49,125 nt of DNA. It comes from an uncultured Gammaproteobacteria bacterium (GTDB taxonomy: Bacteria > Pseudomonadota > Gammaproteobacteria > Pseudomonadales > Pseudohongiellaceae). The notes under the pieces are model-generated. The model searched no databases, was not told the DNA's origin, and saw nothing but the letters and a program-made list of their open reading frames with translations. Every line of letters begins with the position of its first letter. The first letter of the stretch is position 1. A program made the position numbers and the translations under genes. The DNA is taken from contig CAJXUA010000022.1 in the NCBI GenBank assembly GCA_913060695.1, positions 1-49,125 of the forward strand. Reading direction: 5' to 3'. This document shows positions 376-22,230 of the stretch, piece after piece.

Positions 376-2247
376 CTAGTTGGAAGCGGGCAGTGAGAAG
401 AGTACTTGGGCGATGTCTTCAAATGGCCCGAGGACTAGCACATCACCTTGTTGTTGAGAGCCTTCGAGCCCTTGTTCATAAGTCCAATCCTTCGGGATAC
501 GAATGCTCAGCCCGTCGATCGCTCCATCGGTAGTGATCAGGACACGCTTTGTTTGCGTATTCACTGTCTCTACTTCAACCACCGCACTGTCGCGTACTGC
601 CCACCAATGGCCGAACTGCGCGACTGTACCGAACCATGCCCGTTCCTTAAATTCGGCGATAAAGCGCCGTTCGAACTCCAATTTATGATCGAGCACATCG
701 GTGTGAATTAGTACATTGACCACGCCGCCATGTTTTGCAATTTTATTGGCAAGTACTATCGCTTGATCGATGCGGTCGCCGAGTCGACCACGCTCATCTT
801 CTATGGTGATTGGTATCTCGAAGATGTCCAGTTCTGTGTCGTAGTTGCGGGAATAATTCATGCGAAAGGGCAGGTGAGTGAGAGTGCTGTTCGCGGTCAT
901 GCTCGAGCTATACTTGTAACCTGTCGCTAGTAGCATTTCAGGCAGTTCATAGGGCAAAGAGAGATGCCCGGGTCGGAACGAAACGGTTGTCTGTGGGCTA
1001 AGGTTGTCCAACAGGAATTTACTCACACGAAGTTCACCTGCAATGCTCGCCTCTCTAACTGTTTCGAAGTTGAAGACGAATGGCTGATAGCTGGGATAAG
1101 TCTCAGTGCCAGTACCAAGTTCCATATTCTTGAATTCATTCGAATGGGCGACGCTATGGCTTGCGATCTCCATGCCTTGGTCGTGCAGAGATTGCAGAGT
1201 GGCTTGGCTATCTTGCGTAAAGAACAAAGAGTCGTTGTAGTCGGTGACGTATTTTGTCTGCAAAAAGTATGTTGCTGGAATGCCTTGACTCGCCTCGAGT
1301 GCCGCATAGGTCGGCACATTCTCGATTGAGCGTGTAAAGTCGATGTCGTGCGTTATTAGCGCCGTGAATTCTTGGTTGAAGGGCGTCGTTAGAAATTGCA
1401 CCGCATCTGGGGAGCCATCTCTATGTACCTTAGCAAGAAAGCGTAGAAGGGTATCGATCTTAGGTTGATAGTCGTTTACATAAGTATCTGCGAGTCCCGC
1501 AAAACGGTCGTTCTGCACGCGCAGGATGAAATGCCCGAAGTCGAAACCGACGGCATAGGCGTAGCCAGTGCGGTCTCCCACAGTGTAGGAGTTTTGCGTA
1601 ATCGCGGCGCTACCATCATCGTAGGTGGCAAGCGGCGGATTCTTAAGCGTGTGATAGCTCACGCCAGGCATGGGCGCTGGATTCTCTAATGCCGAAAGTC
1701 GAATGGATGTTTCTGCGGTGTCTTGGAAGAAATTCCCATCGAAAATGCCGCTGTCAAAATTCAGCTCCAACAAATCTCGACGCTCTTCGGTAGATTCAAA
1801 GCCGAGCAACAATGGCAGCCCGCCACCGATCACAGAGAAAGCGATCAGTGATTTACCGCTTCGAACGTGATTCGCTAGCGCGCTTAAGGTCTCCGGCGCT
1901 GTGTTGGACCCAGTAATCGTAGGGTAAACTAGTATGACGTCGTGCTCTAAGGCAAGTTCGATGGATTCTACTATGCGAAAGGGAACACCAATGCTCTTGA
2001 GTCCGTGGGCGATGCCCAGCCATGATGCATCTCTATCTTGCAATAGCACGGCAATGCCGCTAGTGGATTCAGTAAAATAAACCTCTGGAGAGGTGCGCGG
2101 TGGAATTTTGATTGGCAGCTCAGTGATCTCGACAGGACCACTCAATTCTGGAAATGCTGGTAGCTCTGGTGTCAGTAGATTGTACGTAAAGACAGCCAAT
2201 GCGACGCCGAGCGATCCGAAAATCGCCATTTTAGAATTTTTACTCAT
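376..2247 (-). CDS. Membrane-anchored CE4-like polysaccharide deacetylase
   Basis: 623 residues. The N-terminus carries one membrane anchor (about 8-25), so the enzyme should face the periplasm. Residues about 60-280 look like a Rossmann or amidotransferase-like domain without an obvious catalytic triad. A NodB/CE4-like domain follows: THDIDF (metal Asp), then SHSVAHS with the His-x3-His pair, then FRPGH, and a late NVLIHTD motif that may supply the catalytic His. The C-terminus (about 550-623) looks like a small beta domain. The ATG overlaps the TGA of the upstream gene (ATGA), so the two are translationally coupled. The neighbouring GT2 synthase and TPR/beta-barrel protein suggest that it deacetylates a nascent exopolysaccharide, as the N-terminal half of PgaB does for poly-N-acetylglucosamine. 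The substrate is inferred. Confidence 0.75.
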   Translation of the reverse strand: MSKNSKMAIFGSLGVALAVFTYNLLTPELPAFPELSGPVEITELPIKIPPRTSPEVYFTESTSGIAVLLQDRDASWLGIAHGLKSIGVPFRIVESIELALEHDVILVYPTITGSNTAPETLSALANHVRSGKSLIAFSVIGGGLPLLLGFESTEERRDLLELNFDSGIFDGNFFQDTAETSIRLSALENPAPMPGVSYHTLKNPPLATYDDGSAAITQNSYTVGDRTGYAYAVGFDFGHFILRVQNDRFAGLADTYVNDYQPKIDTLLRFLAKVHRDGSPDAVQFLTTPFNQEFTALITHDIDFTRSIENVPTYAALEASQGIPATYFLQTKYVTDYNDSLFFTQDSQATLQSLHDQGMEIASHSVAHSNEFKNMELGTGTETYPSYQPFVFNFETVREASIAGELRVSKFLLDNLSPQTTVSFRPGHLSLPYELPEMLLATGYKYSSSMTANSTLTHLPFRMNYSRNYDTELDIFEIPITIEDERGRLGDRIDQAIVLANKIAKHGGVVNVLIHTDVLDHKLEFERRFIAEFKERAWFGTVAQFGHWWAVRDSAVVEVETVNTQTKRVLITTDGAIDGLSIRIPKDWTYEQGLEGSQQQGDVLVLGPFEDIAQVLFSLPASN

Positions 2248-3989
2248 CGTCTTTGATCCGCGTAGACTTCATCGAGTCCGTGCAGTGCGATGCCTGCAAA
2301 GGAAGACCAAAAACTTAGCTCAGTGCTTAGGCGATTGGAGATTTCATTTAAGCGCAATTGGTCACCATTAAAGGTGAGTTTGTCGGCGGAGAAAACTCGC
2401 TCGAAACGCAGGCTAAAGGAGTCGCCTTCTAGGCTGCGCTGTGGCTGATCGAACAATACTAGAATCGGTGTCGAACCGATCTGCAAATGCCACAGTTCTC
2501 CCTCGAGATTATTGCGCCCGTACGAGCGTTGAGTCTCGTCACCTAGCGAGCCAGTTTCTAGCGCTAAGCGCACTTCTTGTTGGTTGCGCAGTCCCCATTC
2601 GAGAAACGGCGTCATACCAGCAAGCAGTTGCTGGTAGTCGGTACGGTAATTCATGATGGTGAGACTAATGCCAGGGAGGTTTAATTCGTTGAGAAGTTTA
2701 GGCCCCCAGTTCGCGTGATCGCCCCACCACACAGGCATTACTAAGTCGACGTGAAGTGAGTCGCCTGCAGTCTGTTTCGCGGCAGTTATCGTTTGCAAAT
2801 AACGCTCTCGCCATAGGTCTTCTGCTAACAGATGGCCCGGCAACAAATAGGGCTCGATATCGAGTTGTACGCCCGCTAGTTGCTCGTTACTGTCTACCCT
2901 TGTGTTGTAGCGGCGAAACGCAGCGATTCTCGTCTGCAGTATTGTAAGGCTCTCGGGGAGCACATCATGCCGGTCGCCGATAACGGCCCATACTTTGATG
3001 TTTCTCTCCTTTGCCTCACGCACGAAAGCGCTGAGCTGTTGTGGGTTGGCAACTTCTCCTGCTGGATCTATAGGTACAGTGATATAGAACTCATCAAGCC
3101 CTTCGAGGTTGTGTAGCGACCAGAAAAAATTAGGATCATTTTGCCAAATACTTGGATTCCAAACCCAAGCACTGCGTGAATGATTAATTGGATAATCGAT
3201 GGCCGGTGGTAGCGTTATGGAGTTAATGCGTAAAGTCGCAGCGTCTGGTGGGCAGATGAAGGTGACTGCCTGCCAAGCCAATGCGTTGTCGGGAAGGTCA
3301 AAATAATGATCATCAATATTGGCATTTCCGCTCAAACTCAATGTGCCGATTGTGATAGTCGCTTCATTCTCAATATGCTGGGCAGTCGCAATGGCGATTT
3401 GGAAGTCACCGATACCCGAAGCGTTGACCTGCAGTCGTCTGTTTTTTGGCCATAGATAATTGGCCTTGAGCTGAATGCCAGCGACCTGATTGCCGTCGCT
3501 ACAATCTAGTTGCTTGCCCTCTATCCATTGGGCTCGTTCCTCTATTCCAAAAAGTACACTATCAAAGTCCGCCAGTGGATCGCTTTCCTGCACGGTTGGG
3601 GTTGCATTAGTGGCGATAGGCGCTGGTGCTGGCTCGGGGGTTATAATTTCACTTATGTCAGCTCTTTCAGGGAAGAAACTGCCTTGTAACATCACCTGGT
3701 TGTGAGTGCTAAGGTTTTGCTCGGAAGGCAGTAAGGAACTCCATAATATAGCGCTGGCAGGCTGCGGTAAGGATGTGGTCTCACATAACTCTGAGTTCAG
3801 CGCAGTATCACTGACGATGAGTAATTGACGCTCGCCAGTAGCCGAGTAAAACTCCTTGACGGACATGTCGTCTTGAATATCGATAGTGGCGCTGCATATA
3901 GCAATGCTTGCAGCAAGGCTGAGCTTGCTGAGGCAAGCAGCACACACAGTGCTAAAAAGGAGAGTGATTCTTGTAAAAATTAACTTCAT
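2244..3989 (-). CDS. Secreted protein with TIM-barrel glycoside-hydrolase-like domain
   Basis: 581 residues with an N-terminal signal peptide (about 1-27). After a short N-terminal region and a Pro/Ala-rich linker (about 110-135), residues about 150-265 look like a beta-sandwich. Residues about 270-530 look like a TIM barrel: the strand-like segment LDEFYITVPI, then GVQLDIEPYLLPG with a D-x-E pair at the end of a strand, DLVMPVWWGD, and ISLTIMNYRTD. A D-x-E at this position recalls the acidic pairs of GH18-type and PgaB C-terminal hydrolases. The gene ends in an ATGA overlap with the deacetylase gene, so together the two correspond to the two halves of PgaB. Likely role: trimming or binding the polymer during export. 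No close named family is recognised and activity is not proven. Confidence 0.65.
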   Translation of the reverse strand: MKLIFTRITLLFSTVCAACLSKLSLAASIAICSATIDIQDDMSVKEFYSATGERQLLIVSDTALNSELCETTSLPQPASAILWSSLLPSEQNLSTHNQVMLQGSFFPERADISEIITPEPAPAPIATNATPTVQESDPLADFDSVLFGIEERAQWIEGKQLDCSDGNQVAGIQLKANYLWPKNRRLQVNASGIGDFQIAIATAQHIENEATITIGTLSLSGNANIDDHYFDLPDNALAWQAVTFICPPDAATLRINSITLPPAIDYPINHSRSAWVWNPSIWQNDPNFFWSLHNLEGLDEFYITVPIDPAGEVANPQQLSAFVREAKERNIKVWAVIGDRHDVLPESLTILQTRIAAFRRYNTRVDSNEQLAGVQLDIEPYLLPGHLLAEDLWRERYLQTITAAKQTAGDSLHVDLVMPVWWGDHANWGPKLLNELNLPGISLTIMNYRTDYQQLLAGMTPFLEWGLRNQQEVRLALETGSLGDETQRSYGRNNLEGELWHLQIGSTPILVLFDQPQRSLEGDSFSLRFERVFSADKLTFNGDQLRLNEISNRLSTELSFWSSFAGIALHGLDEVYADQRR

Positions 3990-4008
3990 AGATTGATTCG
4001 ATTAGCCG

Positions 4009-5871
4009 TTAAAATTTATGTTGAATACTTAAGCTGATAGCTTCTTGAGTATAGGAGTTTTGGCGTGTGTTGCGGCTCAGGTCTACGCGCACATTGGTGT
4101 CATCGTTTATATCTACGCGGAAATACACATGATGCACATTGGTCTGGGTAGTGACATTTAACTCTGTCTCTGGCGCGTCGGTATAATTGTACCCTATTAA
4201 TAGTCGTGAATTTGTTTGCCAGTGCGCACCGATATTCCACCCGACGGTTTTCTCGCCCGTTTCGTCTTTGACTATGCCTACTCCTGGGGAAATCCAGGCG
4301 TTGACGTTGAGTAGGTAGTGCGTGAAATCAAGCTGCAACCAATTCACATCACCGCTTGCATATTTTGATTGAGTAAGTGCGATACCAAGCATAGTGCTGC
4401 CGATATTCTCACCGGCTTGCATTAACAGCGTGTTGCCGGCAAGCCTGATCCTTCGCTGCGGTAGAATCTCACTGTCAGAGGTGTGGGCTAGCGCGAGCTC
4501 GAAGGTAGAGGTGGTTCCGCTTAACAATCCACCAACTTCATACAAAGTATCGTCTAAACCAAAACGATCGGCGTATTCGCGTCTAAGGTAGAACTGGTGC
4601 CTAGATGCAGTACGATACCGATATTCTAGAGTTCGAGTTTGCCAATCCACAAAACCTGGCAGGTCTAGATTACTTCTCCCAATGCTTGCTGTAACTATAT
4701 GCGCGCTTGTGCCCAAAGGCATCGTGCGTCGCTCACGTCGCGTAGTAACGTCGATATGCTCGGGTGCAACTCTTTCTGCAAGATTTAGTGCTATTAACGC
4801 GGCGTCGTCTTCGCCCGCGGCCAATTCGACATCATATAAACCGACCAGCGCCTCGAGGTTCGATGGCTCCCGTGCAATAACGGCATTGAATGCGGTTCGT
4901 GCGTCTGAGTAGCGACGTTGGTAGTAATACACTCGAGCCTTCAATGTCATCGCTTCGATGTTATTGGCATTCATTGCCAAAGCCTGATCCGCTATGTCGA
5001 TTGACTCTCGATAGAAACCTTGGAAGGAGAGCACGCGCGCCTTTCCAAGTATCAGTTGCATATCGTTCGGATAGGTTTCCAATGCAGCATTAAGAATGCT
5101 GATAGCCTCGATGAAACGTTCTTGGAAGGCAATCACCATTGCCAATAAGAAAGAGACTTCGTTGGTTTCATTGGCCAAGGGCAAGGCAATTTTCAATGCC
5201 TCCTCAGACTGTAGAAACTCACCATCATTGCGAAGCCGCAAAGACTCTTGAATGAGTTGCTCATAGCTAAGCTGGTCTATATTGGCGGCGTTGTAGATTG
5301 GTGTACCACTACTTGATTGATCTTGGGAGGCGCTTGCTTGGGCAGCCAATTCGACGTCATTGAGCCCGGCAATCGCTTCTGAGTTCGATGGGGCTAGCGC
5401 AAGTACCGCGTTATACTGCGTGCGCGCATCATCATGACGCTGTTGATAATAATACATTCTGGCCTTCAAATTGAGGGCTTCAATATTGTTGGCATCTAGC
5501 GCTATTGCTTGATCTAAAAAGTCGATCGACTCCAGGTAGAGGCCTTGAAAAGAGAGAACCCGCGCTTTGCCAATAAGTAGCTGTATATCGCTAGGATAGG
5601 TTCGCAGAGCCGAATCGAGTATTGAGATCGATTCGTCGAAGCGATCTTGAAAGGCCACTACCATTGCCAGTAGATAGGCAACTTCGTTTCTTTCGTTTGC
5701 TAAGGGTAGGGCTTGCCTAAGCGTAGCTTCGGATTGGGGGAAGTCGCCGTTATTGCGCAGCAGCAAAGACTCTTGAATGAGGTCTTCGTAGTTCGGTTCT
5801 GCCGCATTTGAAATAGCAGCTGCGCACAATGTTAAAGACAATATAAGTGCTTTGATTGCGGTGCTAGTCAA
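4009..5871 (-). CDS. TPR protein with C-terminal YaiO-like outer-membrane beta-barrel
   Basis: 620 residues. The start is TTG at 5869-5871, two bases after the stop of the preceding gene, with GAGGAAG six bases upstream that supports this rare start. A signal peptide (1-24) is followed by two near-identical TPR blocks (about 26-182 and 203-360), joined by a Ser/Gln-rich linker. The last 230 residues are rich in alternating aromatic strands and end in Phe, as outer-membrane barrels do. They resemble the YaiO family. In pga, pel and cellulose systems a TPR-plus-barrel protein (PgaA, PelB, BcsC) is the periplasmic scaffold and export pore. This protein would be the export pore here, although the barrel is smaller than in PgaA. 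The duplicated TPR block is unusual. Confidence 0.8.
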   Translation of the reverse strand: MTSTAIKALILSLTLCAAAISNAAEPNYEDLIQESLLLRNNGDFPQSEATLRQALPLANERNEVAYLLAMVVAFQDRFDESISILDSALRTYPSDIQLLIGKARVLSFQGLYLESIDFLDQAIALDANNIEALNLKARMYYYQQRHDDARTQYNAVLALAPSNSEAIAGLNDVELAAQASASQDQSSSGTPIYNAANIDQLSYEQLIQESLRLRNDGEFLQSEEALKIALPLANETNEVSFLLAMVIAFQERFIEAISILNAALETYPNDMQLILGKARVLSFQGFYRESIDIADQALAMNANNIEAMTLKARVYYYQRRYSDARTAFNAVIAREPSNLEALVGLYDVELAAGEDDAALIALNLAERVAPEHIDVTTRRERRTMPLGTSAHIVTASIGRSNLDLPGFVDWQTRTLEYRYRTASRHQFYLRREYADRFGLDDTLYEVGGLLSGTTSTFELALAHTSDSEILPQRRIRLAGNTLLMQAGENIGSTMLGIALTQSKYASGDVNWLQLDFTHYLLNVNAWISPGVGIVKDETGEKTVGWNIGAHWQTNSRLLIGYNYTDAPETELNVTTQTNVHHVYFRVDINDDTNVRVDLSRNTRQNSYTQEAISLSIQHKF

Positions 5872-5872
5872 G

Positions 5873-6526
5873 TTACTTCCTCGCCTTCAGTAGAAATTTG
5901 AACAACTCGTTATTCTCCATTTCCAGTCGGATGCTAGCGCTGGCCGATTGATTCAAATCATAGGTAGAACGTACTAGGAGCACAAGGTACAAACTCGCAA
6001 GAATCGCCATTGCCGTGTGAGCCGGAGCGCCAGAGGACCCTAGGGCGTATATCAGGGGTATTAGCATGCATAGTTGGTAGGGCACAGCGGCTAAAAGTGA
6101 TGGGTACAGAGAAACTAGCCCACCAGCGGACATGCCGGCGATTAGGAAAACGATAAATGTTTCAGTCCAGCCAGCGAAATAGAACACATCCAATAGTGGC
6201 AATATACCCCAGCAGAGAGCCGACCCACAGGCGAAAACGATGTAAATGGCAGTCCAAAGATCGAAATGTTGACTACTACTATCGAGGCGGTTGAAGACGA
6301 TGACCATAGTGGTTCTTAGTAGAGTTAATATCACGACAGCTGCTAGCCAGAGGTTTAGCACGATCTGCTCTGTAACATCACGCAAGGTGAAGAAAACGAT
6401 CACCGCATTGACAATCGAAATGAAAAAGCTCGATTTACCATTGGAAGCCAATGCTCGTAGAGTCTCATATTGGATTCTAGCGCTGAGATCTAACTCAGAT
6501 ACTGGGTTTTCATTCGTATCCGTCAT
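5873..6526 (-). CDS. Six-helix membrane protein resembling a detached sensor input module
   Basis: 217 residues. The protein has a short acidic cytoplasmic N-terminus, about six hydrophobic helices between residues 32 and 192, and a C-terminal helix (SIRLEMENNELFKFLLKARK) that looks like the start of a signalling coiled coil and then stops. The layout resembles the membrane input domains in front of GGDEF or kinase domains, but no output domain follows: the next gene starts two bases after the stop in another frame. It may be a subunit that holds the synthase complex together, as PgaD does, or a sensor that lost its output domain. ATG is preceded by a GGGA sequence. It lies 107 bases downstream of the GT2 gene and is almost joined to the TPR/barrel gene. 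Function unknown. Confidence 0.65.
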   Translation of the reverse strand: MTDTNENPVSELDLSARIQYETLRALASNGKSSFFISIVNAVIVFFTLRDVTEQIVLNLWLAAVVILTLLRTTMVIVFNRLDSSSQHFDLWTAIYIVFACGSALCWGILPLLDVFYFAGWTETFIVFLIAGMSAGGLVSLYPSLLAAVPYQLCMLIPLIYALGSSGAPAHTAMAILASLYLVLLVRSTYDLNQSASASIRLEMENNELFKFLLKARK

Positions 6527-6633
6527 ATCAGTCCCTGTCGACTAAGAATGAGTGCATCGATATGTTTCAAGGTTTTCATTACTATTTCACTACTATCTGA
6601 CTTGCGTGGTTAATGTGCGAGAAAAGACAAATG

Positions 6634-8031
6634 CTATTTTTGCCAGTTCCCAGTTCGTGTCATGTCGCCCCACTTATGCTTAGTGTTGCGCAGCCATTCG
6701 ATTGACCCTTGGATCTTGTAAACCATATTGAGCTGTCGGTATCCGAAGGATTCAAGAAAAGCGAAAAAGATTAAAACTAGCACCCCTTTCATACTCGTAG
6801 ATCCTGGGAATGTAAACTCATCCAAGAGTAAACTAACGACCGACATGAGAACTGAGAGTTGAATGGCGAATATGTAAATTATGCTCGCGTCCAAAATGCT
6901 GAGCTGTTGTGAAAGTAGCAGGTAGGCGGTGAAAATATAACCGGCTAGTTCGACGAAGGGACTCAGCCATTCGAAGAGAATGAAGAAGGGGAATGCTACC
7001 CAGCCTATGGTTCCACTTTTTCTTCCGAAGAGTAAGCTTCGATTAAGCGTTAAACTTTCCGATAAGCCACGATGCCAGCGTCGGCGTTGTGATGCGAATA
7101 CTTTCAGTGACTCGGGTGCCTCAGTCCAGCAGACCGCATCGGGGATAAACTCGACTCGGAATGGCTTGTCCTGTGCAATCATCGTGCGATACATGCGCAG
7201 AATTAGTTCCATGTCCTCGCCAATCGTATTCGCCGTATATCCACCAGCGTCTACTACTGTGCTCTTCCTGAAAAGCCCGAAGGCGCCGGAGACAATCATT
7301 AAGCCCTTGATCCTTGACCAAGCAATGCGGCCGAAAAGAAATGCTCTTAGGTATTCGACCATCTGGAATATCGCAAGGAAATTGCTAGGCACGCCTTTGC
7401 TGGTGATGCGGCCATCTTTCGCAGTGCAGCCATTCGCGATTCTTATTGTCCCACCCGTGGCAATAGTTTCGGGATGGTTAAGAAATGGCTGCACGATACG
7501 CACTAGACCATCTGGTTCTAAGATTGAATCCGCATCGATACAACAGAAAAGTGGGGAGTGGCATACATTGATCCCTGCATTAATGGCATCGGCCTTGCCA
7601 CCATTAGCCTTGTCAACGAGCTTTAGATTCTTATGAATACGAGAGAGATAGACCTGCTTTATCTCGGCGCAGGGTATGCTGTCGCTTATATTCTCTGGGA
7701 ACGCTTGGAATTCAAACTCCGATAGCAATACGTCGAGCGTGTTGTCCTTAGAGCCATCGTTGACAACGATGACCTCAAGCCGTGGGTAGTGAAGCTGCAG
7801 AATCGATCGCAAGGACGATACGATAGTGGTGCCTTCGTTGTAGGCGGGTACGATCACTGAAATTGGTGGCTCGTTACCGTTGTTAAGGCTTTGCCCTCCC
7901 TGTGTTCGTTTCTGTTGAAGATAGGTGCGTAAGGTGTCAAAGGCCACGAGGTTCAACAGCAAATAGGAAGCGCTGCATGCCACTATATAGATCAGGAAGC
8001 CTAGGAATATCCAGTACTCTAGACCATTCAT
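6634..8031 (-). CDS. Processive family 2 glycosyltransferase (exopolysaccharide synthase)
   Basis: 465 residues from the ATG at 8029-8031. This start forms an ATGA overlap with the upstream HEAT gene and has GGAG seven bases before it. A TTG four codons earlier is possible but less attractive. One or two N-terminal membrane helices (about 5-30) precede the GT2 domain. Motifs run in the expected order: VIVPAYNEG, NDGSKDNT, DADS (metal DxD), GEDMEL (catalytic Asp) and QRRRW, the Q-x-x-R-W motif of processive synthases such as PgaC, NodC, hyaluronan and cellulose synthases. Three or four C-terminal helices would form the export channel. The length fits PgaC-type enzymes rather than BcsA, and no PilZ domain is present. 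It likely polymerises a UDP-sugar, perhaps UDP-GlcNAc given the deacetylase in the operon. The sugar is inferred. Confidence 0.88.
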   Translation of the reverse strand: MNGLEYWIFLGFLIYIVACSASYLLLNLVAFDTLRTYLQQKRTQGGQSLNNGNEPPISVIVPAYNEGTTIVSSLRSILQLHYPRLEVIVVNDGSKDNTLDVLLSEFEFQAFPENISDSIPCAEIKQVYLSRIHKNLKLVDKANGGKADAINAGINVCHSPLFCCIDADSILEPDGLVRIVQPFLNHPETIATGGTIRIANGCTAKDGRITSKGVPSNFLAIFQMVEYLRAFLFGRIAWSRIKGLMIVSGAFGLFRKSTVVDAGGYTANTIGEDMELILRMYRTMIAQDKPFRVEFIPDAVCWTEAPESLKVFASQRRRWHRGLSESLTLNRSLLFGRKSGTIGWVAFPFFILFEWLSPFVELAGYIFTAYLLLSQQLSILDASIIYIFAIQLSVLMSVVSLLLDEFTFPGSTSMKGVLVLIFFAFLESFGYRQLNMVYKIQGSIEWLRNTKHKWGDMTRTGNWQK

Positions 8032-9236
8032 GTCGTACTCCAATCTTTCTCGGATAGGACATGCCTCAATATGTCGGACACGGTGGGGTCTTTTTCATTG
8101 TTCAGCATTTGTTGGAGGTAGGTGTAATTCTTCCCGCCTAGGTTAACAATGGCTTCCGCTGCGCGATAGCGAAACCACCAGTTCTCGTCCGAAAGTAAGG
8201 GAATAATGAGGGGGATATCGGAAAGATCACCGATTCTACCGAGGGCCTTCGCTGCCTGAATACGCAAGAATGGGATGTCGTGATTAAGGAAGGGGATTAC
8301 TTCATTGCGTTGTTCATAACCGCCAAGATTACCAATCGCTCGTAAAAGTGAGCCAGCCTCCTCGCTATTGCTGTATTTATGTAATTTTTCGATGATCAAT
8401 GGAAGTAGAGATTTGTCGGTGCTTCGCTCGGCAAGGCTTATGAAGTTCGTAATCGTATAATTTGGTAGGCGGTCTAGGAATGGCTCTAAGACATGCAGGA
8501 TCCTGCCCCCGCCAGCAGCGCCAATTTCGGCAGCAATAGTGGGTGCCTGTTCGGGAAACCGAAACAGTATCTTGATAACTGCCTTCTCATAATTTTCAGC
8601 CTGCAAGCTTACAAGGCTAGTGCAAGCCCTAAGAGCAATGCCTCTATTGTTTGAAGCCAGGGCCCCCCAGAGATTATTGATGACTCGTTTAGAGGGAAAC
8701 CACTGTGCAGCGGTAAGCGCAAGAGTTCTTAACCAGATAGGGCGACTAAAGACCGAGTAACCCCGTGGAGTTAAAATGGCGAAGATTACGTCATCTAGTC
8801 CCACTTCGCGTGCAAGCTTATCCAGTCGTGCTGCGTTTTCACTAGCGCTTTTAGCACGTAGGTCTACCCATAAGTGCAATACATGAGACCATTGACTCTT
8901 TAGAAGCGGGGGTCTTTCCTCGGATACGCCCTCCAATACCGGAAGCCAAATCGCCTCCACCTTCTCAATGTGGCGACGATTAATAAGGAATCGAATACGC
9001 GCGATAGATAGAATCACTAGGCTAAGTAAGATCAAGCCAAAAAGCACAAAACTCGCAAAAATCGCAATCTTGAAAATGCCTGCCTGAGAGGAGATAAAAT
9101 CTACTAGGTCCGGAAGCTGTAAAAATATGACGGAGACTCCTGTGAATAACATGACTATCTTTTTTAATATCGACCGGAGGTGTTTGAGTAGCTCAAAATG
9201 ACTTAAGAATTGCTCTGAACTAGGGTTCTGGAGCAT
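8028..9236 (-). CDS. Membrane-anchored HEAT-repeat protein
   Basis: 402 residues and the first gene of the polysaccharide unit. Two hydrophobic helices (about 27-48 and 55-83) are followed by a cytoplasmic-looking region of helical repeats from about 115 to 395. The clearest HEAT units are near the C-terminus (segments such as IPFLRIQAAKALGRIGDLS and WFRYRAAEAIVNLGG). ATG 9234-9236 has AGGAG eight bases upstream. The stop overlaps the start of the GT2 gene (ATGA), implying a fixed ratio and physical partnership with the synthase. HEAT arrays are protein-binding scaffolds; one next to a processive synthase could gate or assemble the complex. No such subunit exists in the classical pga, pel, alg or bcs operons. 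Specific function unknown. Confidence 0.75.
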   Translation of the reverse strand: MLQNPSSEQFLSHFELLKHLRSILKKIVMLFTGVSVIFLQLPDLVDFISSQAGIFKIAIFASFVLFGLILLSLVILSIARIRFLINRRHIEKVEAIWLPVLEGVSEERPPLLKSQWSHVLHLWVDLRAKSASENAARLDKLAREVGLDDVIFAILTPRGYSVFSRPIWLRTLALTAAQWFPSKRVINNLWGALASNNRGIALRACTSLVSLQAENYEKAVIKILFRFPEQAPTIAAEIGAAGGGRILHVLEPFLDRLPNYTITNFISLAERSTDKSLLPLIIEKLHKYSNSEEAGSLLRAIGNLGGYEQRNEVIPFLNHDIPFLRIQAAKALGRIGDLSDIPLIIPLLSDENWWFRYRAAEAIVNLGGKNYTYLQQMLNNEKDPTVSDILRHVLSEKDWSTT

Positions 9237-9549: not shown

Positions 9550-11457
9550 TTGGCTAGACGAAAAATTCGATCGATCAAATGGGCATGGCTGCTACTGCTG
9601 CTATCCTCGGCAATAAGCCGTGCCCTTATTGCACAGCCCGGTGCTGTGCTCGAGATCGACGCCATCGAACGCTCGATAACCTTAGCCCCCTACACCCAAT
9701 ACCAATTCGAAGGCCCCGATAGCGATATTGCGCGCATCGACAGCGACGATATCTCCAATTTCCGCGCCTTGCCTAGTGATGAAATCTCCTTCGGTTACAC
9801 ATCCAATAAAGTCTGGCTTCTGATCGATACGCACAATGCCAGCGATCAGGTCAGAAATCTTCTATTAGATACCAACGTGAAGTATATGCGTCCGCTAGAG
9901 ATCTACGAGATATCGAATCGGGGAGAGCCCACACTGCTACTGCGCAATGACGAGAACTCTGATTTTAATGCGCGGGGATATCAGGAGCCTAAGATTATTC
10001 TGCCTCTGCAATGGCAGCCAAGGGAGTACAAGCAACTCCTTCTGCGTGTCGGTGCGGGCGGGGCGTTGAGTATTCCCCTGGAGCTTAGTAGCTCTGTAGA
10101 GATTGCGAGTAAATATGGCGATGCACGCGCATTTGCGATGTTTTTCTCTGGTGTGCTAATAAGCCTAATACTCATTAATCTATTCCACTTTGCAACGGTT
10201 AGGCGTTGGGAGCACTTGCTTTATGCATTGATGGAGACCTCTATCTTACTTTTCGTATTACACAATGAGGGATTCGCGTTTCAATATCTGTGGCCTAATA
10301 GTCCGGTGTGGAATGCCCATGCAACCTTGGTGCTTGGGCATAGTACGAATATGTTCGCGGCGCTATTCGCGCTGGTGTTTTTAGAGTTGCGCAAGCGAGC
10401 GCCGATATTCTCGAAGATGCTTCTAGGCATTGCGATTATTTCGGCGTCTGCACTGCTCTTGAGTCCATGGCTAGAGCCACGATTGTCTAATCAACTTGGC
10501 CTGATTACCTTAGCGGTAGGTAGCAGCACTATTGTGACGGCTGGCGTATGGGTGTTGCTGCATGGCCACAAACCCGCTCGCTACTTTGTACTCGGATGGC
10601 TCTTCATGGGCACTGGGGCCGCCCTGTATGGTCTCTCAAACCTCGCTATTATCAGCCTTCCCATTGCCGCTATAGAGGTGTTGAAGTTCAGTGTTCTACT
10701 CGAAGCGATTCTGATTTCCTATGGTCTTTCAGCATTGCTCAAATTGCTGTCAGACAAGGTTAGGAGTTCGCAGCGGGCGCTGATAACGGTGACAGAGAAG
10801 CGTTTGAGCGATGCGCTAGAGAGGGTGAAACTCGAGGAGCGCCGCGCGGAAGCTGAGCGAGAGTTAGCCGAGAAGGCGCTGGAGATGGCACGTACCAGTC
10901 ACGATATACGGCAGCCAATTCATTCATTGCGCTTAGCACTATTAGCTCAGGCGCGAACACAGAAAAACCCCGCGACCTTAGAGGTCTTTAACAAGACCCT
11001 CGATCATATGGAGGCGCTACTCGGTAATATCAGCAATAAGGAAGGCGAAGCGTCCAGAACAAGCTTGACCACCTACGGCCAACTTACCCGACAACTTTGC
11101 GATGAATTCGCCGCGGTAGCCAACAGTGGTGGAATCGAGCTTAGGCAGTTGAGCAGCAGTCTGCCGGTTGTGACAGCAGTAGTGTCCCTGAAGCGGGTGA
11201 TTAGCAATTTCCTATCTAATGCGCTTAAGCATTCGAACGCGTCGAAGGTGTTATTCGGTATTCGGAGGCGCCCATATGGCGTGGAGATTCTAGTTTTAGA
11301 TAATGGCCATGGCCTCGATAGAGCAGACGCTAGTACTGCCGGTAGTGGGCTAGGTATGGGAATCGTAGAGGCTTTGTGCAAGGAAAATGGCTGGCATAGC
11401 GAAATAAAAACGCAATCAGGAAGAGGCACCTGTTGTAGTATTAAGGTCTATACGTGA
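9550..11457 (+). CDS. 7TMR-DISM histidine kinase
   Basis: 635 residues. The TTG start at 9550 is the only start that keeps the signal peptide; AAAGG lies ten bases upstream. A signal peptide (about 1-28) is followed by a periplasmic beta domain of the 7TMR-DISMED2 kind (about 30-175) and seven membrane helices (about 190-400). Next come a charged coiled coil, a HisKA-like helix with the phosphoacceptor His451 (TSHDIRQP), and an ATPase domain with N box (SNFLSNALKHS), DNGHGL and GSGLGMGIV. 7TMR-DISM receptors often sense carbohydrates or small ligands. The response regulator gene starts 16 bases after the stop. The pair is divergent from the polysaccharide unit and directly upstream of a TonB receptor, either of which could be its target. 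The ligand is unknown. Confidence 0.85.
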   Translation: MARRKIRSIKWAWLLLLLSSAISRALIAQPGAVLEIDAIERSITLAPYTQYQFEGPDSDIARIDSDDISNFRALPSDEISFGYTSNKVWLLIDTHNASDQVRNLLLDTNVKYMRPLEIYEISNRGEPTLLLRNDENSDFNARGYQEPKIILPLQWQPREYKQLLLRVGAGGALSIPLELSSSVEIASKYGDARAFAMFFSGVLISLILINLFHFATVRRWEHLLYALMETSILLFVLHNEGFAFQYLWPNSPVWNAHATLVLGHSTNMFAALFALVFLELRKRAPIFSKMLLGIAIISASALLLSPWLEPRLSNQLGLITLAVGSSTIVTAGVWVLLHGHKPARYFVLGWLFMGTGAALYGLSNLAIISLPIAAIEVLKFSVLLEAILISYGLSALLKLLSDKVRSSQRALITVTEKRLSDALERVKLEERRAEAERELAEKALEMARTSHDIRQPIHSLRLALLAQARTQKNPATLEVFNKTLDHMEALLGNISNKEGEASRTSLTTYGQLTRQLCDEFAAVANSGGIELRQLSSSLPVVTAVVSLKRVISNFLSNALKHSNASKVLFGIRRRPYGVEILVLDNGHGLDRADASTAGSGLGMGIVEALCKENGWHSEIKTQSGRGTCCSIKVYT

Positions 11458-11473
11458 GAGTGACAATAAGAAT

Positions 11474-12085
11474 ATGAGAATCGCAATCGCCGATGACCAT
11501 GAGATCTACCGCATAGGTTTGAAGATGCTGCTAAGTAGCATGGACGATATGCAGGTAGTACTAGAGTTAGAATCGGGCAATCAATTATTAAAGGCGCTCG
11601 CGCAGACTTCCGTGGATTTGGTGATCCTCGATCAATCAATGCCTGATGGCACGGGTTTAGATTTTCTTCGGGAGCTCAAGACTCTGCAAAATCCTCCATT
11701 AGTTATCTTGCTCACTGGCAGCAGTGGCAGTGCGATACTGCATGAAGCAATTTCACTTGGCGCTGTGGCAGTGGTAGCGAAACAGGGCAGTGGCGAGGAG
11801 TTGGTGTCAGCGCTAGAAAATGTCCAGAGTAAGCAATGTTTTGTGAGTGCGGATTTCACAGAGCTCGTGGCAGGCGATAATTTGCTAGATCAGCTAACCA
11901 AGCGTGAGCGTGAGGTCCTCGATAAGATAATTAAGGGACACTCCACACGGGCAATCGCAGAGGCATTCAATGTCTCGTTTAAGACGGCCGAGACTCATCG
12001 TGGTCGCCTAATGAATAAGCTAGACGTCCACAGTGTGGCCGAACTCATGCAATTCGCCCGATCTGTGGGATTGTTATCTAAGTAG
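11474..12085 (+). CDS. LuxR/NarL-type response regulator
   Basis: 203 residues. The receiver domain (1-120) has the acidic pair in IADDHE, phosphoacceptor Asp53 (LVILDQSMPDGTG), a Thr in LLTG and Lys in VAKQG. A LuxR-type helix-turn-helix follows at about 140-203 (LTKREREVLDKIIKGHSTRAI), the DNA-binding output. It lies 16 bases after the 7TMR-DISM kinase gene and is its obvious partner. Its targets may include its own divergent neighbour (the polysaccharide unit) or the TonB receptor gene downstream; both are guesses from position. The ribosome binding site is weak. Confidence 0.88.
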   Translation: MRIAIADDHEIYRIGLKMLLSSMDDMQVVLELESGNQLLKALAQTSVDLVILDQSMPDGTGLDFLRELKTLQNPPLVILLTGSSGSAILHEAISLGAVAVVAKQGSGEELVSALENVQSKQCFVSADFTELVAGDNLLDQLTKREREVLDKIIKGHSTRAIAEAFNVSFKTAETHRGRLMNKLDVHSVAELMQFARSVGLLSK

Positions 12086-18516: not shown

Positions 18517-20961
18517 ATGATGCAAAGGAACGGTATTCTAGCCAGAGACAATATGGTGAAATTCCTCAATGTCGTTGATATGCAGAACTTTCCAGCTTCT
18601 TGGGGAGTAGAGCCGTTGCTCGAAAAACTAGCGGAAACCTGTCGAGCGGGGCAGGCGCTCGTCATCGCTGATAATGCCACGCAGGGTCGCTACATAAGCA
18701 CCTTCGGTATGCCTAATGGCGACGTGCCATTAGATTTGACTGCGCTGCAAGGCCTCCTGCCAGACTCCATGCTGCTAGAGATTGAACGCAGCAGCGATCC
18801 ACGTGCTTTTAAGGCACTAAACTTACCCTCGAATCAAACCCCTATCTCCTATATTGCGGGCCTAGCCCTATTAGATTCTAAGGGGCAACGAATCGGCTTT
18901 ATCTGTGTGCTAGACAGTAAACCGAAGCGTATGAGCAATCTACAGAAACTGGCCTTCGAGCAATTGGCTAATAGTCTTCAATTAAAGATTGAGGCAAGAA
19001 GCAAGCTAAGCCCTAATATAATTGACGAAGAGTTTGTAGTGCGCGATCTTTTGCGCCGGAAATTGGCGAACAATCCAAGCAATAGCCTAGAGTCTGTTTT
19101 TACAGAGGCGCTAGATGCCATCAGAGATCATATCTCCATTATCGATGAATCCGGCGTTAACATATTCGTAAACACAGCGTGGGTCGATTTCTCTGAGAAA
19201 AATAGTGGCATGGCTAGGCGTGAACAGCTTGGGTTAGGCAGCAACTATCTGCAAGTATGCGAGAGGTCCGCCGCGCAGGGATGCGACGATGCGATGTTTG
19301 TTTTCGCCGCCATCAACGCGGCGTTAAGCAGTGCGGATTTCTCCGTGCGCAGGCTAGAATACCCTTGCCATAGCACGAATGAAGAACGGTGGTTTGTGGC
19401 CAGTATCTCGGCGCTTTCCATTAACTCCAGAAAACTTGTCGTGATAAGTCATCACAATGTGACAAGGAGAAAGCAGGCGGAAATAGAGAATAGAAGATTG
19501 GTGGATAAGCTCGAGATTCGTGTTAGCGAGCGTACCCAGGAATTAGAGAAGACTAATCAGATATTGCGCAATAGCGAGGAAAAATACCGCTCCATTTTTA
19601 GAAATTCGACGGTTGGTTTTTTTATTACATCATTGGATGGTGTGTGCGTAGACGTTAACGATGCCTTTTGTGATTTAACAGGTCGACAGCCTGAGGAGCT
19701 TATGGGTCAGAGAATAAGCGATGTGCTATTCGATCACGATGCCAATTTAATTGGGCATATGCAGTCATCGGTTCTTTCTGGCGAAACTGTGAATCAAGTT
19801 CGTGACGTTAGGATTCGCAGGTCCGACAAAGCGCATAGTTGGGCACGCGCCTCGGTTGCCGCCATTTTTGATGGCGAAGGTAAGCCAGTTCAAATAATGA
19901 ATTTGTTTCAGGATTTCACGCTGCAGAAAAAAGCCAAACAAGAGCGTGACCAAGTCTTCGAAAAATCCTTCGATTTATTCGCCATCATCGAATATGACGG
20001 TACTATATTCCAAGCGAACCCGGCGTGTAGTCGTATGTTCGGTATACCTGGAAGGAGTCTCCCTGGCAAAAACATGCTGGAGTTTATCCATCCAGACGAT
20101 ATACATAAAGCTAGTGCTGTCTTAAAGGCTATGCAAGAAGAAGACAATGAAGTCCCCGCCTTGGATATTCGTATGCATTGCAAAGGCGGTGGATACCGCG
20201 ACATCCGGTGGAGTGGTTCGCGTCATATAGAACACGCGCGCCTGATCGTAGTTGGCAGGGATGTTACGAGCTCCCTCAATTCTAAGCGCGCGCTGCAGCG
20301 ATTAGCCTCACGCTTACAGCAGATTCGCGAGGAAGAGCGAACCCGTATATCGAGGGAGATTCACGATGAGCTTGGGCAAATACTCACGGCCCTTAAAATA
20401 GACCTTAATCTCCTCAATCGCGATGTAGGTGAAAGCTCGGACGATCTCCTGAGGGAGGACATTTCTTCAATCATCGAGTTGGTAAACTCGACCCTGAACT
20501 CGGTAAAGCGCATCGCTCAAGACTTGCGTCCAGAGGTCTTGGATGCCCTTGGCTTGGTGCCTGCACTAGAGTGGCAGGCGAAAGAGACTCAATCTCGTAT
20601 GGGCTTAAAGTGCAAAATCGTGTGCAAGCAAGAGATCCCGGAATTAGACAGTGAGCAGACCACTCAATTGTTTCGCATAATCCAAGAGTCTCTGACCAAC
20701 GTAGTGCGTCATGCAGAAGCTAGCCTTGTAAAGGTTCTCATCGAATTGCTCGAGGATAATATTTTGAGTATCTGCATTCGCGATAATGGTAAGGGCTTTA
20801 ATGTAGAAGATGTAGGGTTTCAATCCCTTGGTTTACTCGGTATGCAAGAGCGCGCAAGGAATATCGGTGCGCAACTTGATATAAAGAGTAAAATTAACAA
20901 AGGTACGACAGTGAAGCTAAGATTGCCTGTCGGTAGCGTTTATTGGGACGAACAAGAATGA
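18517..20961 (+). CDS. GAF-PAS-PAS-PAS sensor histidine kinase (NarX-like HisKA_3 type)
   Basis: 814 residues from ATG 18517; ATG 18553 is an alternative, and neither has a clear ribosome binding site. No membrane segment is seen, so it is probably cytoplasmic. A GAF domain (about 15-165) is followed by a PAS (about 190-320), a coiled coil, a PAS starting at KYRSIFRNSTVGFF, and a third PAS starting at FEKSFDLFAIIEYDG. The kinase core is HisKA_3, with His616 in SREIHDELGQ. The ATPase has IIQESLTNVVRHAEAS, IRDNGKGF and LGLLGMQERA. The core is of the NarX/DegS class, which pairs with LuxR-type regulators. Exactly such a regulator follows with an ATGA overlap. The three sensing domains point to intracellular or redox signals; the ligand is not evident. 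Confidence 0.9.
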   Translation: MMQRNGILARDNMVKFLNVVDMQNFPASWGVEPLLEKLAETCRAGQALVIADNATQGRYISTFGMPNGDVPLDLTALQGLLPDSMLLEIERSSDPRAFKALNLPSNQTPISYIAGLALLDSKGQRIGFICVLDSKPKRMSNLQKLAFEQLANSLQLKIEARSKLSPNIIDEEFVVRDLLRRKLANNPSNSLESVFTEALDAIRDHISIIDESGVNIFVNTAWVDFSEKNSGMARREQLGLGSNYLQVCERSAAQGCDDAMFVFAAINAALSSADFSVRRLEYPCHSTNEERWFVASISALSINSRKLVVISHHNVTRRKQAEIENRRLVDKLEIRVSERTQELEKTNQILRNSEEKYRSIFRNSTVGFFITSLDGVCVDVNDAFCDLTGRQPEELMGQRISDVLFDHDANLIGHMQSSVLSGETVNQVRDVRIRRSDKAHSWARASVAAIFDGEGKPVQIMNLFQDFTLQKKAKQERDQVFEKSFDLFAIIEYDGTIFQANPACSRMFGIPGRSLPGKNMLEFIHPDDIHKASAVLKAMQEEDNEVPALDIRMHCKGGGYRDIRWSGSRHIEHARLIVVGRDVTSSLNSKRALQRLASRLQQIREEERTRISREIHDELGQILTALKIDLNLLNRDVGESSDDLLREDISSIIELVNSTLNSVKRIAQDLRPEVLDALGLVPALEWQAKETQSRMGLKCKIVCKQEIPELDSEQTTQLFRIIQESLTNVVRHAEASLVKVLIELLEDNILSICIRDNGKGFNVEDVGFQSLGLLGMQERARNIGAQLDIKSKINKGTTVKLRLPVGSVYWDEQE

Positions 20962-21590
20962 TTCGAATTATAATCGCCGATGATCATGCTCTGATCCGAG
21001 AGGGTTTGCGTAAGGTCTTTAGTAGAGAAAAAGATATAGAGCTTGTCGCTACCGCAAAAGATGCAAGCGAAGCCGCGCAGCTTTGTGCCAAGCACGATGT
21101 CGATGTCTTTATTGTCGATTTTAATATGCCAGGTCGTAGTGGCTTGGAGCTTATAGCGCGACTAAAGACCTTAAGGCCAAAGCTAGCAGTCTTAGTGCTA
21201 AGCATGATGCCGGAGCGCGATGTTGCGGTGCGTGCGTTTAAAGTGGGTGCGGCAGGTTTTGTCTCTAAAGAGAGTGCCTCCGATGAAATAGTGAACGCCG
21301 TTCGGAAGGTGGCAACTGGTGCTCGCTACGTCAGTCCAGCGGTAGCTGAGCAGTTAGCGCAGAATTTGGATGCAAACACTCATGACGTGGCCCATGACGC
21401 ATTGTCAGATAGAGAGCTTCAAGTCGTCCGTTTGATTGCGTCAGGAAAGCGCACCCGGGAGATTTCAGAACAACTGTCTTTAAGCATCAGTACAATCGCT
21501 ACATACCGTCGCCGCATTGCGGAGAAGCTTAATTTGCGCTCCGATGTCGAGATTACTCGCTATGCCATAGAACACAATCTTATAGTATAG
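20958..21590 (+). CDS. LuxR/NarL-type response regulator
   Basis: 210 residues from ATG 20958-20960, which overlaps the kinase stop as ATGA; a TTG five codons earlier is less likely. The receiver has IADDHA, phosphoacceptor Asp54 (VFIVDFNMPGRSG), Ser in VLSMM and Lys in VSKES. The LuxR-type helix-turn-helix (about 145-210) starts at LSDRELQVVRLIASGK. It is the cognate partner of the HisKA_3 kinase upstream. The next genes encode a lone receiver and a receiver-EAL phosphodiesterase, so it may belong to a branched pathway. The 45-base palindrome 42 bases after its stop could be a binding site or a transcript end. Confidence 0.92.
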   Translation: MIRIIIADDHALIREGLRKVFSREKDIELVATAKDASEAAQLCAKHDVDVFIVDFNMPGRSGLELIARLKTLRPKLAVLVLSMMPERDVAVRAFKVGAAGFVSKESASDEIVNAVRKVATGARYVSPAVAEQLAQNLDANTHDVAHDALSDRELQVVRLIASGKRTREISEQLSLSISTIATYRRRIAEKLNLRSDVEITRYAIEHNLIV

Positions 21591-21632
21591 TCTTTCCACC
21601 TCCTTGCTTAGATCGCGAAACACCCCTTCTTC

Positions 21633-21677
21633 ATGACGAGCCCTGTGTCACGAAATTCGTGACACAGGGCTCGTCAT
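21633..21677. repeat. 45-nt perfect inverted repeat (22-bp arms, 1-nt centre)
   Basis: The two 22-base arms (21633-21654 and 21656-21677) are exact complements around a single A at 21655. The central part contains GTCACGAAATTCGTGAC, itself a palindrome, and another CGTGAC lies just after the right arm (21681-21686). It sits between the response regulator gene and the lone receiver gene. As RNA it would be an extremely stable hairpin, but no T run follows. It could be a transcript end, an mRNA-processing site or an operator. Confidence 0.7.
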
Positions 21678-21773
21678 TATCGTGACAAAGTTACCACGAG
21701 ATTGGTGATACCGCTTTTCCCTCATTGCTCTATCCTAGATCATGTATTTATTAAAGTTAAAAGGACTTGCTGC

Positions 21774-22214
21774 ATGAAAGTTTTAATCGCGGATAGCTCG
21801 CCCATATTTCGAGAGCGGCTAGTACGCTTGGCTATTGAAATTATTGGGGATATCGACGTCTTTGAAGCACGGAATTATCAAGAATTAAGAGAGATCTACA
21901 CCCAAGACGCACCGTCATTGATCTTCGTCGATATTTTCCTAGATGGGGGAAGTGCGTTAAGAGTGCTAGATGAGAATCCCGATATCAGTAGCAACGCACA
22001 TGTAGTTGTTTTATTAAATACGCGAGACGAGTCACTGGCGAGGCAAGCGAAAGAGAAGGGTGCACGAGCTGTCTATTTGAAGAGTGACGACTTGATAGAG
22101 GCAATGTCAATTCATCAGATTATCGTTCCAGTTGGAGCGCGAGAGGCTCTACCCAGTGACCACCACTCATTGCAAGAAAGACCCATTAAACAATTCTCAG
22201 CTGCTAGTAAATAA
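21774..22214 (+). CDS. Single-domain receiver protein with a reduced acidic pocket
   Basis: 146 residues from ATG 21774, with AAAGGA eight bases upstream. An earlier in-frame start (21702) is possible but has no binding site. The protein is a CheY-like receiver with phosphoacceptor Asp53 (LIFVDIFLDGG) and conserved Lys (VYLKS). The acidic pair that binds magnesium is reduced to one Asp (LIADSS), and the switch Thr/Ser region reads LLNT. After the receiver there is only a tail of about 25 residues. It may be a phosphate shuttle or sink, or a protein-protein adapter, between the kinases on either side. It is followed 16 bases later by the receiver-EAL gene, which has the same type of ribosome binding site. 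Confidence 0.8.
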   Translation: MKVLIADSSPIFRERLVRLAIEIIGDIDVFEARNYQELREIYTQDAPSLIFVDIFLDGGSALRVLDENPDISSNAHVVVLLNTRDESLARQAKEKGARAVYLKSDDLIEAMSIHQIIVPVGAREALPSDHHSLQERPIKQFSAASK

Positions 22215-22230
22215 TCTTAAGGACTACAGC

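Follow-up and report, generated by a model that had tools for sequence, protein, structure and literature searches.

A predicted exopolysaccharide synthase locus with a HEAT-repeat protein and a YaiO-type barrel in an uncultured gammaproteobacterium

Introduction

Cellulose, poly-N-acetylglucosamine (PNAG), alginate and Pel are the textbook synthase-dependent exopolysaccharide systems, and genomes encode other polymer synthases besides theirs. Here we analyze a run of six genes at positions 376-9236 of a 49,125-nucleotide stretch of DNA (“the window”; contig CAJXUA010000022.1) from an uncultured gammaproteobacterium of the family Pseudohongiellaceae. The run codes for a protein with HEAT repeats, a glycosyltransferase of family 2 (GT2), a six-helix membrane protein, an exporter with tetratricopeptide repeats (TPR) and a YaiO-type barrel, a TIM-barrel protein resembling glycoside hydrolases (GH), and a deacetylase of the carbohydrate esterase family 4 (CE4) superfamily. 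From the sequence evidence we consider it rather likely that the locus encodes a distinct and widespread type of synthase-dependent machinery for exopolysaccharide.

Among described systems, Pga and Ica (PgaABCD, IcaADBC) share with the window a processive GT2, a TPR-barrel exporter and the functions of a periplasmic CE4-type deacetylase and a TIM-barrel hydrolase. The window differs from Pga by a GT2 of another clade, a HEAT protein in place of PgaD, a barrel of the YaiO type, and a deacetylase and hydrolase residing on separate genes. The yaiO-yaiX-yaiP-yaiS locus of Escherichia coli likewise encodes a barrel of the YaiO family in the vicinity of a protein of GT2 type and a putative deacetylase, whereas no HEAT gene is annotated in that stretch; yaiX is interrupted by IS2 in strain K-12. 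According to the portion of the report consulted, NfrBA-YbcH of E. coli combines a GT2-type synthase with an outer-membrane partner, as the window does, and produces a secreted exopolysaccharide (PMC8669469); the six window proteins, in contrast, are without a matched domain for cyclic di-GMP (c-di-GMP).

A “novel pga organization” without pgaB and pgaD was reported from environmental bacteria (PMC7112194), and loci of this kind may already have been encountered there; the portion of that text consulted mentions neither HEAT nor YaiO. A published description of a HEAT-GT2-YaiO system was not found among the matches listed in a search of open-access literature, with most subscription journals and preprints outside its scope.

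Results and Discussion

Conservation of the HEAT-GT2 core

To describe the neighborhood of the synthase we used 98 loci picked by GT2 similarity, namely 80 of the at least 573 relatives obtained by a GT2 alignment scan of a species-genome collection, and 18 loci from the class. At least two genomes are included twice (L027/L049 and L031/L077). The search profiles for neighboring genes were grown from the window proteins on the same 98 loci. As a result of this selection, the co-occurrence counts given here express linkage and do not represent an independent sample.

By profile search a HEAT gene is found in 93 of the 98 loci, and in 85 of these 93 it lies on the same strand as the GT2 gene, overlapping it or at most 60 bases away. 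The five remaining loci contain either distant GT2s (L039, L040) or are Nitrospira-type loci near contig ends (L043, L044, L069). The YaiO barrel occurs 71 times, the TIM-barrel enzyme 27 times, the deacetylase five times and the six-helix domain once. The HEAT-GT2 pair spans many phyla and extends to an archaeal metagenome-assembled genome (MAG). The best reading is that the conserved unit consists of HEAT protein, GT2 and TPR/YaiO barrel, with local add-ons.

The six-gene set as the conserved unit, as framed in the earlier note, had to be given up: a relative of the six-helix protein, which is a sensor-input domain belonging to signaling proteins, is missing in 97 of the 98 loci. The proposed recurrence of the set was borne out for five genes (HEAT, GT2, YaiO, TIM barrel and deacetylase), which occur together in L042, L046, L066 and L150, and failed for the six-helix protein. 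Adjacent deacetylase and TIM-barrel genes accompany the core in Nitrospira, one betaproteobacterium and one further genome.

Within the order (145 genomes, E-value 1e-30) the GT2 is present in two genomes including the window's own, and the other one has no comparable neighbors within 4.2 kb. Within the class (369 genomes) it is present in 19, again including the window's own. A scan of the genome collection with the HEAT protein as sole query returned no relatives. The nearest GT2 relative (L041, 56% identity) is part of a response regulator-YaiO-HEAT-GT2 set, and downstream of it a six-helix-plus-PAS protein is encoded that is kin of the window's six-helix protein. The record title of L041, Klebsiella pneumoniae, looks wrong, and the record is probably a mislabelled MAG. 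The title Nitrosospira of L044 looks wrong as well, as its GT2 nests among Nitrospira in a 110-row tree.

Synthase and exporter

The GT2 residues D96, D170xD172, D277 and Q319RxxW323 are invariant in all 14 aligned rows. Together with its membrane helices the protein shows the general features of a processive GT2 of synthase-dependent systems (D, DxD, D and a QxxRW-type motif). The exporter scores above cut-off for TPR families and for YaiO (PF19413, 27.5 bits over 23.9; TIGR04390, 60.6 over 32), as is expected of a TPR-barrel exporter, and is the sole PF19413 match in the genome. A second close copy of the GT2, TIM-barrel or YaiO protein was not found in this genome; a separate GT2 protein of 881 residues on another contig has a cellulose-synthase-like look (134.9 bits compared to a cut-off of 699.1).

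The barrel is missing in all 11 monoderm-type loci (six Bacillota, four Actinomycetota and the archaeal MAG) and present in 71 of the remaining 87 (Fisher p = 1.2e-7). This absence in monoderms supports an export function of YaiO. It also bears on the idea that the GT2 might glycosylate a lipid or protein without forming a polymer, its neighbors being chance passengers. The GT2 family is indeed large and mixed; yet QRxxW and membrane helices are typical of processive synthases, the barrel is confined to loci outside monoderms, and hydrolase and deacetylase recur with the core. We regard this explanation as very improbable.

Comparison with pga

A rearranged pga locus making PNAG, in which the two halves of PgaB are encoded separately and another protein substitutes for PgaD, would account for the list of parts (deacetylase, hydrolase, TPR-barrel and GT2). 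PgaC is the best NCBIfam model for the window's GT2, and PgaB is among the Foldseek neighbors of the TIM barrel. Yet the GT2 reaches only 145.5 bits where the PgaC equivalog cut-off is 422.3, and the exporter 47.2 bits where PgaA demands 366.65. No PgaB model was matched in Pfam or NCBIfam by the deacetylase and hydrolase, which are two separate genes instead of one two-domain protein, and none of the six proteins has a Pfam match to PgaD.

Phylogeny points in the same direction. A 54-row GT2 tree was built from 39 of the 98 locus rows with five weaker PgaC-model hits added, and the references YaiP and XrtG were dropped for their long branches. Here 38 HEAT-linked GT2s including the window's form one clade (bootstrap 99, SH-aLRT 97). 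The window's GT2 is placed outside the PgaC clade (100/98), which holds E. coli PgaC, two PgaC hits over cut-off, the PgaC-like neighbors from L023 and L025 and a Lactococcus protein. The bootstrap of this tree had not fully settled. In the earlier and less clean 110-row tree, where E. coli YaiP sits on a very long branch, HEAT-linked rows do not make up a single group (six changes), in part because three Nitrospira-type loci gave no HEAT hit in their DNA.

In two loci (L023, 4951-9145; L025, 10535-14704) a second GT2, of the PgaC clade, adjoins the HEAT-GT2 pair. The one in L023 has weak, sub-cut-off PgaD-like and PgaA-barrel-like neighbors and lies beside HEAT-GT2-YaiO; L025 appears likewise by clustering. 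PgaC-type and HEAT-GT2-YaiO sets therefore coexist as separate systems. A rearranged pga locus is thus an unlikely explanation, and the earlier proposal of a system that parallels the functions of PgaABCD without being pga agrees with our results; a GT2 firmly inside the PgaC clade, which would have spoken against it, was not observed.

Deacetylase and TIM-barrel enzyme

The deacetylase matches PF01522 with 32.7 bits (cut-off 23.1). D301, D303, H364, H368, R425 and H515 are invariant in all six deacetylase relatives, and the AlphaFold2 model (mean pLDDT 77.6, loops below 50) retrieves CE4 enzymes in Foldseek, many of them chitin or peptidoglycan deacetylases, and acetylxylan esterases too. Family match, conserved base, metal and acid residues, and fold place it in the CE4 superfamily, with its activity being predicted. 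In classical CE4 enzymes the two aspartates are adjacent (DD), and the D-x-D of the window protein departs from this spacing. A GATase1-like domain is probably located at the N-terminus, as Foldseek hits to GMP synthetase and GH42 and a weak profile match to beta-galactosidase (profile positions 162-243) suggest.

Two described enzymes offer themselves for comparison, each as far as the consulted portion of its report goes. PelA uses a D-x-D (D528, D530) and an HxxxH as catalytic base and metal residues, resembling D301-x-D303 and H364xxxH368 of the window; it is said to be without the CE4-type RPG arginine, which the window keeps as R425 (PMC12022489). In Agd3 (CE18) a GATase/ThuA-like domain is combined with a CE domain and, at the C-terminus, a beta domain (PMC7229062); the GATase-like, CE and beta layout of the window protein resembles this. 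The 50 listed of the 113 Foldseek hits (E-value up to 0.001) include neither Agd3 nor PelA, and a CE18 label was not accepted. No Pel genes were seen in the locus. By analogy, the overlapping deacetylase and hydrolase genes may be regarded as having the look of an unfused PgaB or PelA.

The TIM-barrel protein combines a beta-rich N-terminal part with a barrel carrying an invariant DxE. Its relatives fall into two length classes, and the residues D377, E379, M446, Y448 and R449 show no variation among the 25 members aligned. The family profile matches the structure PDB 10yv over the barrel (E-value 2.1e-21; 4.6e-14 for a single relative alone), whereas the window sequence as single query found no match. 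Literature on 10yv was not found among the matches listed. “Putative GH97” (Cellulomonas fimi) is only the name given to it by its depositors, and this label was rejected for the TIM barrel. GH97 is absent from the Pfam matches. An AlphaFold2 model (pLDDT 88.2) retrieved GH18 chitinases, endoglycosidases, SleL, O-GlcNAcase and PgaB at modest scores, and CBM29 modules for the beta-rich part; the top-ranked GlfT2 hits, with TM-scores near 0.16, were not regarded as meaningful. The motifs of GH18 are DxDxE and MxYD. The DxE and MxY pattern of the window resembles them, with R replacing the final D. The GH18 family PF00704 was not reached above cut-off (one of 25 members matched, best E-value 0.079).

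Both enzymes keep company with the core. All five deacetylase loci among the 98 also contain the TIM-barrel enzyme, the barrel and the GT2, and three of the five the HEAT gene. In a search of 398 genomes of the phylum that was independent of the GT2, the TIM-barrel family was found in four: the window's, two in which it lies beside HEAT-GT2-YaiO (G307, corresponding to L031, and G526, corresponding to L150), and G743, where it lies beside a distant GT2. The deacetylase occurs in three of the 398, namely the window's, G526 and G773 (L149); in L150 barrel, HEAT, GT2, deacetylase and TIM barrel are all together. Counting both searches, TIM-barrel enzyme and GT2 accompany the deacetylase in seven of eight deacetylase loci. 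As a separate observation, in L176 (8290-14035) a TIM-barrel relative heads another run, with proteins of 333 and 467 residues and a distant GT2, which is perhaps another unnamed synthase system.

Nature of the polymer

An amino-sugar product, which the earlier note took to be partly deacetylated, is plausible. GH18, GH84 and PgaB barrels, all neighbors of the hydrolase in fold space, lean this way. Such barrels act on N-acetylhexosamines. Substrates of CE4 enzymes include O-acetyl groups as well. The polymer might instead be neutral or uronic, with the CE4 enzyme taking off O-acetyl groups and the GH lacking amino-sugar specificity. This alternative is possible though doubtful; the acetylxylan esterases among the CE4 fold hits and the MxYR of the barrel at the place of MxYD would fit it. 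Relatives in Legionella adelaidensis sit with genes for a nucleotide-sugar dehydrogenase and an epimerase, and clusters of genes of these kinds (C2 and C9), identified from their translations, are shared by several of the loci L034-L038. The amino-sugar-related barrels among the hydrolase's neighbors and the many chitin or peptidoglycan deacetylases argue against this alternative.

Besides the linked sampling, several observations weigh against the proposed machine or its amino-sugar product. The fold neighbors of the hydrolase are mixed, including galactanases, a xylanase, an alpha-glucosidase and other GH barrels, the similarity to chitinase-type structures is modest (TMt about 0.4-0.46), and some relatives are dehydrogenase-linked. 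No sugar-nucleotide genes are contained in the six-gene run. The barrel is missing in 16 loci that are not monoderm, four of them from Massilia, and a plasmid record of Bacteroides finegoldii has HEAT-GT2 with no annotated YaiO nearby. In G773 the deacetylase lies beside a weak TIM-barrel relative with no HEAT or GT2 gene within 20 kb, and in L046 it reads as two open reading frames (ORFs).

The loci L034-L038 and L128 form a diverged HEAT-GT2 branch, several with epimerase and nucleotide-sugar dehydrogenase genes nearby. These neighbors, and the Legionella adelaidensis cassette, may reveal the donor sugar.

Regulation and possible mechanism

The order response regulator, YaiO, HEAT, GT2 is found in 25 of the 98 loci, and response regulator, HEAT, GT2 in another 25, in some of them with YaiO behind. 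Of the 86 loci that could be tested by a stricter rule, 45 encode a stand-alone short response regulator immediately upstream of HEAT or YaiO-HEAT. These regulators comprise 120-159 residues in 44 of 45 cases, too few to include a DNA-binding part; the phospho-aspartate is present in 44 and the lysine in 45. A further 31 short response regulators are located elsewhere within the same loci. The window's run has no stand-alone response regulator; a divergent 7TMR-DISM kinase and a LuxR-type regulator are found instead (9550-12085), which by their position may belong to the locus.

Annotated plasmid records display related arrangements. Mesorhizobium ciceri carries response regulator-YaiO-HEAT-GT2, and Erythrobacter aureus the same cassette, in which the annotation calls the barrel protein simply a TPR protein. 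In Legionella adelaidensis, genes for epimerases and a nucleotide-sugar dehydrogenase accompany YaiO-HEAT-GT2. In Emticicia GT2 and YaiO adjoin an LTA synthase family protein with HEAT not annotated, and the haloarchaeon Salinirubellus has response regulator-HEAT-GT2.

Of 114 genomes of the class, 30 (the window's own counted) contain relatives of the six-helix protein. Out of 11 extracted relatives, some cut by the locus end, ten were scanned: six contain histidine-kinase domains, three the GGDEF domain of diguanylate cyclases and one nothing. Judged from these relatives, the window protein is an input domain without output; as a guess, it is perhaps a sensor or scaffold. Pfam gave none of the domains for c-di-GMP control (PilZ, PgaD, MshEN) in the six proteins; such domains are common and not universal in synthase-dependent systems.

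For the machine as a whole, family knowledge and gene linkage suggest the following steps. The GT2, judging from its motifs and family, would polymerize a sugar nucleotide at the cytoplasmic face, threading the chain through its own membrane helices. The HEAT protein, with N-terminal hydrophobic segments at about 23-41 and 47-76, may use these as an inner-membrane anchor and expose its repeats to the cytoplasm. Its near-constant gene pairing suggests that it could bind the GT2 as co-polymerase or regulatory subunit, taking the place of PgaD or PilZ parts. In the periplasm the CE4-type enzyme might strip acetyl groups and the GH-like barrel cut or trim the chain, roles with which the predicted folds of both proteins, and their conserved residues, agree. 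The TPR arm of the YaiO protein would then steer the chain into the outer-membrane barrel for export, a role in keeping with the monoderm absence. As a guess, the orphan sensor and the divergent kinase-regulator pair may control the timing of locus activity.

More tentatively, HEAT-GT2 could represent a synthase class that is gated by two-component phosphorylation and not by c-di-GMP. A CheY-like regulator would dock on the cytoplasmic HEAT solenoid and switch the GT2. The class would comprise monoderm and diderm bacteria as well as some archaea, with YaiO added only where an outer membrane exists, and the window would be a derived case that lost the stand-alone regulator and gained hydrolase, deacetylase and orphan sensor.

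Gene run and neighboring features

The six ORFs are closely packed on the minus strand (Table 1), as the earlier note had described, and the widest spacing, between the GT2 and the six-helix gene, is 107 bases. Two ATGA overlaps are present in the sequence as claimed: the ATG of the GT2 gene at 8031 shares bases with the TGA of the HEAT gene, and the deacetylase ATG at 2247 with the TGA of the TIM-barrel gene. Owing to the former, the GT2 probably starts at this ATG rather than at the listed TTG at 8043. Taken by the note as showing “working partners”, the overlaps suggest co-expression of the joined genes; partnership does not follow from them. The assigned roles of HEAT, GT2, TPR/barrel and CE4-like proteins are backed by Pfam or NCBIfam matches above cut-off. 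For the TIM-barrel and six-helix proteins there is no Pfam match at E 0.1 and no NCBIfam match above cut-off; the TIM-barrel call is supported by the AlphaFold2 model.

Table 1. Genes of the run and adjacent possible regulators, with positions in the window.
Feature	Position	Strand	Length (aa)	Basis
HEAT-repeat protein	8028-9236	minus	402	HEAT_2 PF13646, 52.4 bits (cut-off 27.7)
Processive-type GT2 synthase	6634-8043	minus	469	Pfam GT2 families, conserved motifs
Six-helix membrane protein, putative orphan sensor domain without output domain	5873-6526	minus	217	Domains of relatives
TPR/YaiO exporter (predicted)	4009-5871	minus	620	TPR families, PF19413 and TIGR04390 above cut-off
TIM-barrel GH-like secreted protein (predicted)	2244-3989	minus	581	Alignment, AlphaFold2, Foldseek
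CE4-superfamily deacetylase, membrane-anchored (predicted)	376-2247	minus	623	PF01522, AlphaFold2, Foldseek
7TMR-DISM histidine kinase, divergent, possible regulator	9550-11457	plus		Pfam; linked by position only
LuxR-type response regulator, possible regulator	11474-12085	plus		Pfam; linked by position only

Further along the window, translations read as a dense signaling block (18517-28771) with a histidine kinase bearing a PAS domain, a response regulator with an EAL domain (22132-23472) and a hybrid kinase of 1771 residues (23456-28771). In four other loci (L077, L079, L085, L098) a protein of about 800 residues is encoded between the YaiO and TIM-barrel genes. The copy of L077, the only one scanned, matches the sulfatase family PF00884; this protein is possibly an alternative polymer-modifying module.

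Conclusions

The locus points to an annotation gap: the machine is of a known kind, synthase-dependent secretion, and forms a variant whose synthases make up a clade of their own and whose HEAT partner is nearly constant. The HEAT-GT2 pair is present in many phyla and two archaea, and in the open-access literature searched we found no name or function for it. Gene order predicts that the HEAT protein is a synthase subunit, the response regulator a switch and YaiO the exporter. The modification genes are predicted to be interchangeable, with deacetylase and hydrolase in this gammaproteobacterium and a sulfatase-family membrane protein in Stenotrophomonas-type relatives.

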